This document shows positions 11,688 to 17,679 of a DNA stretch of 64,000 nt, piece after piece. The stretch covers positions 149,791-213,790 of the forward strand of contig SWDR01000022.1 of assembly GCA_005116815.1 (NCBI GenBank), read 5' to 3'. The translations under genes were made by a program, and so were the position numbers. The number at the start of each line of letters is the position of its first letter. The first letter of the stretch is position 1. The notes under the pieces are model-generated. The model worked only from the letters and a program-made list of their open reading frames with translations. It ran no database searches and had not been told where the DNA came from. Source of the DNA: Nitrospira sp. (GTDB taxonomy: Bacteria; Nitrospirota; Nitrospiria; Nitrospirales; Nitrospiraceae).

Positions 11688-13307
11688 ATGTGGATGGGAA
11701 GGATCGCGCAGTTTCGGTGGACAATTCGAAATGGCTTATGGAGTCGGATCTTGGCGTTGAAGTTCAGCACCAATCGAGATTTAGATGTGACCAGATGTAT
11801 CAAGGACCCACGGAAGCTGGAGGCAGTTCCTGTCGCGCAATTGTTTCCCCGTATCGCAATTCAGCATGTATTGGTCGGTGAACGCACGCCCCTGGACGAA
11901 CAACATCCTGTAGTCCGGCACCGGATTCGTCGGTTCTTCTCGCGACTGTTCATGTTCCTGAATCGCCTCTTCCCTCCCACGGTAGAGGGACTTCCTCCCA
12001 TCGATGCGAATCCGCAAATGGCGTTGGCCCAGGCCTATACCGATCGACATCGACGGGCGGTCAGGAAAGCGGCGAAGCGGCATGGACAGCTTCCCAAGGA
12101 GGTGCTGGAGTTTCCGGTGCTTCCACAGGAACTGAAGGGGAGCCCTGATCTCGGGACCCTGGCGGTGCAAGGGCCTTTTGCCGGGTATATCAGGAAGGTG
12201 ATGAACCAGGACTCCTTTGAATGGGATCTCCGGCATTTGACCGAATATCATCCCAGGGCAGGGCTTTATCGGTTGGGCATGCGTGTTCAGTTTCAGTTGG
12301 ACCCCATGGGGAAGCGGCTGACTCCGACGAAGATCGAGTCCGCACTCGGGCTGTCCTATCCCAACGATGCGAACTGGGCCTTGGCAAGCCGCTTGGCGCT
12401 TTGTGCCCTCTCCACCCATACGAGCCTTATTCGCCACTGGAATTGGGTGCACCTGATCGGCGGTGAGACGCTGTCCATCGTGACACGCAATGTGCTCCCC
12501 ACCGATCATCCATTCTGTCGGCTGCTATGGCCCCATATCTTTGGCGCTCAGGCCAGCAACCGGCTCGGGATGGAGTCGCAGGTGGTTCCTGGAGGCGACT
12601 TCGAGTCGGTGTTCAGTTATGCACATGAGGAGATGTATCGGCTCATGGACGACAGCGTCGGAGGGTTTGATGCAAAGGCCTGGGATCCCCAAGGTTATGC
12701 CGCCAAGCGGGGCGTGTTGCATGCAGGATTCGACCAGCCAACCGAGGGGAATCTGGCCGCCTTGTTCGATGTCATGCTCCGGCATACGGCACGATATCTG
12801 GCTCTCTATTACGACAGCGATGCGGATGTCAGGGCGGATCGTGCCATGTGTGAGTGGGTGGATGCGCTGGACAAGGCCTTGTCGAACGGTCTGCCCGTGA
12901 CGTCTGGATCCCTGACTCTGGCTTCGTTGGCTCGATTAGCGGCCTGTTGCCTCTATCTTGGCACGGTGCAGCATGAACTGGTCGGGTCGTCGCTCTGGAA
13001 CTACCAGGTCTGGACGAATGTCATGCCGGTGCAAGTGGCTCGTGACGGGAGTCGTGAACCGGTGGATGTCTATCAGCGGTTATTGAACATGAATTTCATG
13101 TTGAGTACGCCGCGTGCCCCCTTGATGGCCGACCTCACGGCGGTGGTGTTGTCCGAGCCTGCCAATCCGGAACGCTCCGCACAGGCGGTTGCCGCATTCG
13201 CGGCGTTCAGACAGGAGCTGGAAGGGCTTCAGCGGGCGATGGAGGGTGAGCCGTGGATGCCGTGGAAGCTCTATCCCAAGAGCCTTGAAGTGAATATGAA
13301 TGCCTAG
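11688..13307 (+). CDS. divergent lipoxygenase-like protein
   Basis: HTSLIRHWNWVHLIGGETLSIVTRNVLPTDHPFCRLLWPH resembles the LOX Hx4H iron-binding helix and following LP..HP...LL.PH; also DLGTLAVQGPFAGYI. Confidence 0.55.
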   Translation: MWMGRIAQFRWTIRNGLWSRILALKFSTNRDLDVTRCIKDPRKLEAVPVAQLFPRIAIQHVLVGERTPLDEQHPVVRHRIRRFFSRLFMFLNRLFPPTVEGLPPIDANPQMALAQAYTDRHRRAVRKAAKRHGQLPKEVLEFPVLPQELKGSPDLGTLAVQGPFAGYIRKVMNQDSFEWDLRHLTEYHPRAGLYRLGMRVQFQLDPMGKRLTPTKIESALGLSYPNDANWALASRLALCALSTHTSLIRHWNWVHLIGGETLSIVTRNVLPTDHPFCRLLWPHIFGAQASNRLGMESQVVPGGDFESVFSYAHEEMYRLMDDSVGGFDAKAWDPQGYAAKRGVLHAGFDQPTEGNLAALFDVMLRHTARYLALYYDSDADVRADRAMCEWVDALDKALSNGLPVTSGSLTLASLARLAACCLYLGTVQHELVGSSLWNYQVWTNVMPVQVARDGSREPVDVYQRLLNMNFMLSTPRAPLMADLTAVVLSEPANPERSAQAVAAFAAFRQELEGLQRAMEGEPWMPWKLYPKSLEVNMNA

Positions 13308-13520: not shown

Positions 13521-16235
13521 ATGGCCGAAGAGCTTCTCCCTTCAACACAGACCATCCTCGAACGCCCCTACATGAAGTTTGTGCCATTTGGCGTCGACGA
13601 GCGGGGTGAACGCATCAAAGATGTGAGCGGGATGATCGTGCACGATAACGTGGAGTATTTGGAAGAGTGGGTGACGCGGACGAAAGGCGCGGATGCCGCA
13701 GTCCGAGCGATGGATGATTTGTGCCGATTGCTCAATGACCGGATACGAGATCCTTCCTATCATGTCACCCTCGACCAGTTGAAGAATGTCTGGAACAGCT
13801 ACTCCTATGAGTTTACGTCCTACCTGCGTGAGTTTTGCCGGGAACAGTCGAGAGATCCTGACTTTTACATGAACGTGGGTCGAGAGAAGCATATCTCCCC
13901 GTTGATTCAGACGTTGGGACGTCCGTTCAGCCTGGCGCAAATCCATCGCATGTTTCCCTACTTCGCGCGGAAATATGCCAAGGATCTCGAGTATTCGGTG
14001 CTGGAGGTGACGGACACCTCCGCGGTGCTGAGAATGAACCTCACTGCGCGGGTCTTTGAGCAGTTCGGTCCCTATCGGAAGGCCTGCACCGCGCAAATTT
14101 GCGAATCGACGAAGGGGCGATTCGCGATGGTGCCGCCTCGCCTGCATCTCCTTCCTGAATCACGAGTGGTCGACCGAGCCTGTATTGTGAAGGGTGACGA
14201 CTACTGTGAATGGGAGGTCCGCTGGGAGCGTCAAGCCAGACGATACTCAGCCTGGCCTCTTTGGGGGATGGGCGCCGGTTTGGCTACAGCCGGGCTGATG
14301 CGCCTGGCCTACCCGTCGATGAGTCTCGGGGAAGTGATCCTGGCTGGTCTCATTCCGATATCCGTCGCCGGGATGCTCATCAACCGGCATCTTCGGCAGG
14401 AGAGCCAACAGCGGGAGGCGCTGATTCGTGAGCAGATCACGGTGGTGGAGTCGCGCCACGAAGAGTTGCGTGCCGCCTACTTGGAGCAGGAGCAGACGCG
14501 GGTCGAGTTGCGCCGGAAAGTCGCTCAGTTGACGGCCCTCCATCGAGCGGGATTACATTTCAACTCGACGCTCGATCGGGAGGCGCTGATGCAGAAAGTG
14601 CTGGAGACCCTGACCGGCGATCTCCCGTACGATCGGGTGATGGTCTCGTTTTATGACCCGATCAGACAGGTCGTCAAGGATGCGCGGGCATTCGGCGTCT
14701 CGCCAGAGATTCAGGCGTTTGTGCGTGCGCGAGAAATTCCCGTGACCGATCCCATGAGCCCGGAAGGCATTGTGCTCATCCAGGGCCAGCCTCTGTTGAT
14801 CGGGGATCTGCAAACCGTGTGGGACCGCATCCATCCATTGAATCAACAGTTGGCCCTGTTGACGCAGGCGAAGGCCTTGATCGCCGTCCCGTTGAAAACG
14901 AAAGATCGGATTCTTGGCAGTCTGACGGTGGATCGCATGCAGGAGCATAGTCTGACGCAGGACGATCTTGAGTTGATGATGACGGTCGCCAATCAAGTCG
15001 CCATTGCCTTGGACAACGCGGCCGCGTATGAGCAAATCGAAGAGTTGAACCTAGGCCTTGAAGTCAAAGTCCGTGAACGTACGGCCGAGTTGGAGCAGGC
15101 CGATCGCTTGCGGTCGCAATTCCTTTCGCACGTTTCGCATGAACTAAAGACGCCGCTGACCTCGATCAAGGGGTTCTTGCAGAATCTGTTGGATGGAGTG
15201 ACGGGGCCGCTGAATGAGAAGCAGCAACGCTACCTTTCGCGGATGTTGGACAATGCCGAGCGATTGATCCGCATGATTGAGGACTTGTTAGATCGCACCA
15301 GGATTCAGTCCGGGAGGTTGGATCTCGTGCCGAGCGAGATCGACATGGGGCATTGTGTCGGCGAGGCGGTCGAGCAGTTGCGCCTTTTGGCCCAGGCTAA
15401 ACGACAAACCCTGGATGTGGTGGTTCCTCCTGTCCCCCTGATGGTCTGGGCAGATCGGGATCGGCTGATTCAGATCGTGACAAATTTATTGCAGAATGCG
15501 GTGAAGTTTACTCCGGAGGGTGGCAGCATTCTGGTGACGGTGCGGCAGGAGAATCAGATGCTTGCCGGAGTTTCCGTGCGCGATACGGGACCTGGTATAT
15601 CCCCGGAATTTCTCGATCAAATTTTCGATCCATTCTTTCGCGTGAAGCAGGCCCGGAGCGGGACGAAAGGGTTGGGCTTGGGTTTGTCGATTGTGCGGAC
15701 GTTGGTGGAGTTACAGGGGGGGACGATCGTTGCGAAGAGTGAACCGGGGCAGGGTGCGGAGCTCTCGTTCACCATTCCGTTGCTCCCTGCTCCGGCCGCG
15801 CCGCTGGCCGGCACATCGGCGGAATCGCCGCGCATTTTGATTGTCGAGGATGATCCGGATATTCGGCAGCTCTTACAGGATCGTTTGCGAGCCAGAGGCT
15901 ATCGCGTCCACCTGGAAGTGGATGGAGTCCGAGCGTTGGAAGCCGTGCGGGCTGAGACATTCGAGGGCATGATCCTGGATATCGGCATCCCTTCTATGGA
16001 CGGGATGGATGTGCTGAGGCAGATTCGGCGATGGGATCAACAGATTCCCATTGTGATGGTGACGGCGTCAGGGTCCAAGGAATTGGCCATTCGCGCGATC
16101 GGTATGGGGGCGCAGGCTTATGTGCTGAAGCCGTTTGATATCGATGAACTCGAACGGATTGTCGATTGCTGGTTCAGATCGTCTGAGCAGAGGTCGCCAG
16201 AGTCTTCGGTGAGGCCGGTCGTGCCAGGAGAGTGA
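13521..16235 (+). CDS. hybrid sensor histidine kinase / response regulator with GAF and N-terminal V4R-like sensory domain
   Basis: [21 protein letters not shown] (HisKA), [13 protein letters not shown] and [18 protein letters not shown] (HATPase), C-terminal [21 protein letters not shown]; alternative TTG start at 13503. Confidence 0.92.
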
Positions 16236-16251
16236 GAGAGGGAGGACGATA

Positions 16252-17679
16252 GTGAGAAGAGGATGGGGTTGCGGGTGGAACAGGTTAGGATCAGTGCGCT
16301 GGATGTGGGCATTCACGATGTTCTTGGTAGGGCTCTGTTGGGGTGGCCTGCCGTGGGAGGCCACGGCACAGGTGCCGCGCATTCAAGGCCAGGGAACCGC
16401 TGCGTCAGCGATGAGCAATGCCTATGCAGCCCAAGCTGATGACCCCTCGGCGGTGCACTACAACCCGGCTGGGATGACGCAACTTTCGGGCGTGCAAGTG
16501 ATGGCGGGGGCGCTGATCGCCGGTGGATCGACGAACTTTACCAGCCCGACAGGGGCGACTGCTCGTGGAGATCGGAATGGGAGCGCCGCCTGGCCTCCTC
16601 CCGGGCACACATTCATCACGGCGAACTTGAAGGATCTCGGGGTGACGGCTTTGGGCGATCTCACGGCCGGGATCGGTCTGACGGTGCCGTTCGGCTCGCT
16701 CACCCGCTGGCCGAACGATGGGCCGTTCAGGACCGCCACCACGTTCAACACGTTGCCGCTGTTGGATATCAAGCCGACTCTGGCCTACAAGGCGACGGAC
16801 AATCTCTCGCTTGGGCTGGGTGCGGATATCTATACGTTCAGCGGACTCGTCGGCGAAGGTCAGGTTGAAAAACAGTCGGTGTGGCCTGGGGGACTGGGGA
16901 TTCCAGCAGGGTCGAAGGTGGAGCTGTCCGGCAAAGACACCGCAGCCGGGTTCAATGCCAGTCTCTTGTATACGGCGTTACGCAATACCGACGGGAAGCC
17001 GGTGGCGAATATCGGCATTGTCTATCGCAGTCAGGCCACGCTTCATTTGAGTGGAGCCTTATTGGCGAATGGCGCCAAGGTTTCGGATGCCAAGGCGACG
17101 TTGGTCTTGCCGCAAGTGATCACCGGTGCCATTGCCCTCTGGCCGGTTCGTACGTCAGAACGGGAATGGAAGTTGGAGATGGACGTCGATTATGTGGGAT
17201 GGAAGTCTGTTCGAAATCTCGACGTGACCTTGGCGAACGGTGTGACGATCCCGCAGCCGCAGAATTGGAAGAGTACCTATGCGGTCATGCTTGGCACCGA
17301 ATATAAGTGGCTGGCGCTTGAATCGCTTCCAAACTGGGAGATGGCGCTGCGGGCCGGCTATACCAACCAACAACAGCAGATGCCTGATTTGACCTACGAT
17401 CCCGGGATTCCTTCTTCGGACCTCCACATGTTTTTCGACAGCCTCTGCACGTTCATGTCGTCTGGCCCGGTCGTGGTGCTGGTGCTGCAGGGCGACAATG
17501 CGATCAAGAAGAATCGTGACCTGATGGGTGCGACCGATCCGGCCAAGGCTGAAGCGGGCACGATTCGCAAGGCGCATGGCGCGAACATCGAGTTCAACGC
17601 GGTGCATGGATCCGATTCGCCGGAGACGGCGAAGTTTGAGGTGTCGTATTTCTTTCCAGAAACAGACCTCGTCAAATAA
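16252..17679 (+). CDS. OmpP1/FadL family outer membrane protein
   Basis: [37 protein letters not shown]...[10 protein letters not shown], typical FadL N-terminus. Confidence 0.88.

Follow-up and report, generated by a model that had tools for sequence, protein, structure and literature searches.

Closest described systems

Polyunsaturated fatty acids are the usual substrates of lipoxygenases. According to a 2026 review, all lipoxygenases combine three fixed His residues with a His, Asn or Ser and with a terminal carboxylate, usually that of Ile and very occasionally that of Val, the canonical first sphere being 3-His-1-carboxylate and the Asn or His usually lying in the second sphere (PMC13059375). 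A Gly at this position is found in soybean LOX-1 (Gly694, PDB 1y4k), whose sequence was confirmed to read HAAVG at the same site, and hence Gly at that position does not prevent a lipoxygenase from folding and crystallising. The soybean variant is an engineered single change that keeps the canonical C-terminus and second sphere, whereas the Gly described here is natural and clade-wide.

Combination of a lipoxygenase with a heme protein is known from the catalase-LOX and AOS-LOX fusions of Anabaena, Acaryochloris and coral (PMC11719350), in which a heme oxidising domain stands ahead of the LOX domain. The arrangement reported here is alike, but the heme partner is an alpha-dioxygenase with an animal-peroxidase fold, usually encoded by a neighbouring gene of its own, and the LOX domain belongs to a clade marked by Gly and Ala. 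The partner in the Nostoc/Anabaena LOX fusion was considered as a possible dioxygenase and rejected, as it is published as catalase-related. Plant and bacterial alpha-dioxygenases (4hhr, 4kvj; PMC8720084) share with the present partner the motif holding the catalytic Tyr and the proximal His, and lipoxygenase goes unmentioned in the alpha-dioxygenase papers PMC8720084 and PMC9305512. By way of analogy only, fatty-acid oxygenases of Pseudomonas aeruginosa are genetically coupled to an oxylipin-detecting regulator in the oleate-oxylipin quorum-sensing system ODS (PMC6377657); the regulator there is of the LysR type, while at the present locus it would be a hybrid kinase with an H-NOX/V4R-like domain, whose sensing role is a proposal.

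A lipoxygenase-fold protein in Nitrospira

The window, the whole stretch of 64,000 nucleotides analysed here, comes from Nitrospira sp. (contig SWDR01000022.1 of assembly GCA_005116815.1) and contains the following features.

11688..13307, + strand: lipoxygenase-like protein of 539 aa (mini-LOX), an open frame with ATG start
12435..12452, + strand: H250-x4-H255 (H250-WNWV-H255), predicted first two metal-ligand His, 23/23 in the clade
12567..12569, + strand: Gly294, which aligns by eye with the Coffa site, the R/S stereo determinant
12972..12986, + strand: H429-E-L-V-G433, third ligand His followed by Gly (codon 12984-12986) in place of Asn/His/Ser
13302..13304, + strand: C-terminal Ala539, last codon before the stop, carboxylate predicted as the expected fourth ligand
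13521..16235, + strand: hybrid sensor histidine kinase with N-terminal H-NOX/V4R-like domain, GAF, HisKA, HATPase and receiver
16252..17429, + strand: FadL/TodX-type outer-membrane transporter, broken off at 17429/17430, intact in the related genomes G026-G028

Downstream of H255 the protein reads LPTDHPFCRLLWPH, its C-terminus reads ...LEVNMNA, and no PLAT domain was found in its 539 residues. Alignment by eye places Ala at the Gly294 position in several relatives. Searches with Pfam identified the Lipoxygenase family PF00305 with an E-value of 6.8e-6 and 25.3 bits against a curated cut-off of 23.6, covering residues 226-392 only, and no family was assigned in the NCBIfam search. Using phmmer against PDB sequences, 11R-lipoxygenase 3vf1 (E 6e-9) and CspLOX2 5med (E 2e-8) were retrieved, and the family profile matched PDB lipoxygenases with an E-value of 1e-21. 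An AlphaFold2 model, built without metal from a 24-sequence alignment, reached a pLDDT of 89.2 and a pTM of 0.91, and when it was compared with the PDB by Foldseek all 50 matches listed were lipoxygenases (TM by query length 0.58-0.71, 14-18% identity), the best being CspLOX2 with an E-value of 5.5e-16. For the N-terminal 190 and C-terminal 90 residues, homology is drawn from the fold model and not from the sequence. Judged by sequence homology and modelled fold, the protein is a member of the lipoxygenase superfamily. The preliminary description, which had proposed a divergent bacterial protein of lipoxygenase type whose ligand set is altered, is borne out by Pfam, phmmer, profile, fold and alignment; its open reading frame is real, the coordinates are exact with all three motifs in place, and the unrelated fold named there as a possible outcome of structure prediction was not seen.

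An altered predicted metal site

Besides the fold, the protein shares with CspLOX2, a cyanobacterial mini-LOX, and with other lipoxygenases the HxxxxH motif, the later third His, the place of the chain end, which aligns with the canonical terminus, and a lack of any PLAT domain found. It differs from them in having Gly433 in place of the Asn, His or Ser four residues past the third His, E or D directly after the third His, Ala539 in place of the terminal Ile/Val, and no second-sphere Gln. In the alignment with CspLOX2 (5med/5mee), QHELVG pairs with QHAAVN, so that Gly takes the place of Asn; an artefact of alignment was considered for HELVG and discarded, since pairwise and multiple alignments both set G433 on Asn. 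The second-sphere Gln, canonically three residues after this Asn, is replaced by L436. With two lipoxygenase-wide features missing, the protein is best described as a variant rather than a canonical lipoxygenase. It would hold Fe or Mn through H250, H255, H429 and the Ala539 carboxylate, and we propose that water would fill the site of the Asn/His/Ser.

Distribution and conservation of the Gly/Ala clade

The gene is present in 6/32 genomes of the window's genus, 20/176 of its family and 13/295 of a phylum-wide sample, and 27 loci were recovered when two conserved peptide patterns were run against 85,462 species genomes. Carriers belong to six phyla, namely Nitrospirota, Nitrospinota, Myxococcota (Sorangium, Pyxidicoccus), Actinomycetota (Pseudonocardia, mycobacteria and others), Pseudomonadota (Burkholderiales and relatives) and Acidobacteriota. 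Within a sample of 298 actinomycete genomes only one, the sample's centre genome, carries it, and a search of a plasmid collection gave a single weak match, to a Nostoc lipoxygenase.

Across the clade (alignment A2), H250 and H255 are kept in 23/23 rows, H429, G433 and E/D430 in 24/24 and N538 in 23/23, and the terminal residue is Ala in 21 and Gly in 2 of 23. A comparison set of 25 other LOX-like Myxococcota proteins has Asn (23) or His (2) at the Gly433 position and chains ending in Ile, Val or Leu. In the tree, the Gly/Ala rows are monophyletic (100/100) and sit on a long stem branch, and among four genomes of the window's genus dN/dS is 0.11-0.17 for the lipoxygenase-like gene and 0.05-0.06 for the kinase gene.

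These observations bear on whether this is a lone gene, degenerating or wrongly predicted, whose motif arose by chance. Such a reading could appeal to the weak Pfam score (25.3 bits) and the patchy occurrence in the genus (6/32), but it is ruled out by full-length homologues in six phyla, the dN/dS range, monophyly and the confident lipoxygenase fold, and we give it practically no weight. They also refine what had first been said of the ligand set, whose alteration is real but not peculiar to one gene, being fixed clade-wide (Gly 24/24, terminal Ala/Gly 23/23, six phyla, 100/100). Similarly, the chain does end in Ala instead of Ile, but loss of a ligand does not follow, because it is the terminal carboxylate and not the Ile side chain that binds the metal (PMC13059375). 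The three His, Gly433 and the precise chain end are conserved and the gene is under purifying selection; these sequence data argue against the suggestion of an inactive enzyme, which is not favoured.

Several lipoxygenase-like proteins outside the clade were recorded. L135 and L136 from Myxococcota carry HEAVG, L135 ending in Ile and L136 being cut; they are placed as sister to the Gly/Ala clade, although the program warns of long branches meeting there, and they possibly represent a sister group that bridges canonical lipoxygenases and the Gly clade. Neither has an alpha-dioxygenase nearby. L112, L137 and L146, also from Myxococcota, form a separate, very divergent group with a RINI terminus, and L112 adjoins a canonical lipoxygenase gene in Pyxidicoccus. 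The Nostoc cf. commune plasmid lipoxygenase (L122:3098-4939) reads QHSAIG and ends in ...NSTSG, a Gly case outside the clade; its end lies over another gene and could result from a frameshift.

Linkage to a fatty-acid alpha-dioxygenase

The gene neighbourhood is the most informative evidence. In 20/27 named loci an alpha-dioxygenase gene lies beside the lipoxygenase-like gene or is fused to it, and the remaining seven comprise three of the window's genus and four cut by contig ends. Adjacency is seen in the g14/g16 Nitrospira, Sorangium, Pyxidicoccus, Pseudonocardia, mycobacteria, Burkholderiales, Acidimicrobiia and an acidobacterium, and a single fused ORF in N. moscoviensis (L067, L030) and in G079, with lengths of 1592 and 1741 aa. 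The partner heme protein matches Arabidopsis alpha-dioxygenase 4hhr with an E-value of 2e-118 over residues 7-590 of 595. All 14 alpha-dioxygenases inspected contain the F..VYR.H motif, which holds the catalytic Tyr and proximal His as given in PMC8720084, and other alpha-dioxygenase motif patterns were unmatched in some of the 14. On this sequence evidence the partner is a fatty-acid alpha-dioxygenase. Within the window's genus no alpha-dioxygenase adjoins the lipoxygenase-like gene, and a relative at 30% identity that shares the motifs is encoded elsewhere in the genome. On contig C5 of the window's genome (G000), an alpha-dioxygenase-like heme protein (L082:10265-12520) shows homology to a 976-aa relative in G028 that stops part-way, with other sequence after it, possibly a second assembly break.

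The pairing allows a reading in which the lipoxygenase-like protein converts hydroperoxides rather than oxygenating polyunsaturated fat, isomerising or cleaving the alpha-dioxygenase product, a 2-hydroperoxy fatty acid, or supplying peroxide that primes the alpha-dioxygenase heme. The near-obligate pairing with two fusions and the altered metal surroundings would fit it, as would the fact that Sorangium and Pyxidicoccus encode canonical lipoxygenases in addition to the Gly/Ala protein, a hint that the latter does something different. The absence of an adjacent alpha-dioxygenase in the window's genus speaks against this hydroperoxide conversion, and we regard it as unlikely though worth keeping in mind.

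The neighbouring kinase and the FadL-type transporter

In the family, the hybrid kinase gene adjoins the lipoxygenase-like gene in 17 of 18 loci, the contig ending first in the 18th, and it does so also in Nitrospinota L071; in the other phyla no such kinase was found next to the lipoxygenase-like gene. The kinase start is listed as TTG 13503 in the ORF listing, and relatives begin at ATG 13521. The N-terminal domain matched no significant Pfam family, V4R reaching an E-value of only 0.13 in one relative. A model of this sensor domain (pLDDT 91, pTM 0.89) retrieved H-NOX by Foldseek with an E-value of 4e-5 but a TM of only 0.35-0.55, and, likewise at modest scores, TRAPP Bet3 and, with weaker hits, the V4R phenol sensors PoxR/MopR. 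C194, D218 and C221 are invariant and C229 is kept in 14/15, a set that may be equivalent to the MopR Zn site, and the candidate heme ligand H124, picked by eye, is kept in only 5/15. A sensor of hydrophobic ligands is a plausible role for this domain. In the Nitrospirae MAG locus L059:1698-4178, three tandem kinase sensor domains lie behind the lipoxygenase-like gene.

A FadL-type transporter gene follows 3' of the kinase gene in the window's genus and in G154. Counts in promoter and terminator scans were no higher than in shuffles. The FadL-type ORF of the window (16252-17679) turns in frame into the C-terminal half of nucleoside diphosphate kinase (NDK): as far as about 17429 the sequence corresponds to FadL of G026-G028, from 17430 onward to the NDK locus of the same three genomes, and this half is the sole NDK found in the window's genome. 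As FadL and NDK are intact and on different contigs in these relatives, the join at 17429/17430 is probably chimeric. A misassembly is the likely cause and a true rearrangement a possible one, and genes right of 17430 are accordingly not counted as neighbours of the lipoxygenase-like gene.

The strict genetic coupling to oxidising and sensing proteins could also be expected of a pseudoenzyme, in which a lipoxygenase fold serves to bind fatty acids or to scaffold the alpha-dioxygenase or the kinase without metal catalysis, and the missing fourth ligand, the missing second-sphere Gln and the long stem branch of the clade point the same way. A pure scaffold would not need the three conserved His and the exact C-terminus, and together with purifying selection these make such a pseudoenzyme rather improbable.

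A possible bacterial oxylipin pathway

The explanation we consider the most likely, with a slight leaning in its favour, is that the protein is a 3-His plus carboxylate lipoxygenase-fold metalloprotein of a distinct bacterial clade (HExxG-A), acting as a lipid oxygenase or hydroperoxide converter in one pathway with the alpha-dioxygenase. It would act at the membrane on fatty acids or lipid hydroperoxides, the two proteins would share one bacterial oxylipin pathway, and in Nitrospirota and Nitrospinota the neighbouring hybrid kinase probably senses substrate or product. Points that weigh against this explanation are the missing second-sphere Gln (L436) and the non-adjacent alpha-dioxygenase in the window's own genus. 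Production of polyunsaturated fatty acids is not known from Nitrospira, which counts against it as well. Taken together, the evidence makes the locus look less like a decaying gene than like part of a bacterial oxylipin pathway not yet studied. A more far-reaching version, which we put forward tentatively, is that of a lipoxygenase-fold class in at least six phyla that uses three His and a carboxylate only, with the fourth place free of any side chain, and, with the alpha-dioxygenase, makes a doubly processed lipid read by a dedicated hybrid kinase in nitrite oxidisers.

Searches of the open-licence literature, bioRxiv aside, brought up no account of a Nitrospira lipoxygenase, of lipoxygenases in nitrifiers or of an alpha-dioxygenase/LOX pair, which argues weakly for novelty. 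Both lipoxygenase rules of PMC13059375 would be broken by a clade that is natural, old and spread over several phyla and that carries Gly and Ala, and such a clade would offer a natural test of the role of the fourth ligand. With its strict pairing to alpha-dioxygenase, the gene points to a bacterial oxylipin pathway not yet described, and the adjoining kinase in Nitrospirota suggests lipid-oxidation signalling in nitrifiers. If true, the class with its hybrid kinase would constitute an oxylipin signalling circuit in chemolithoautotrophs.
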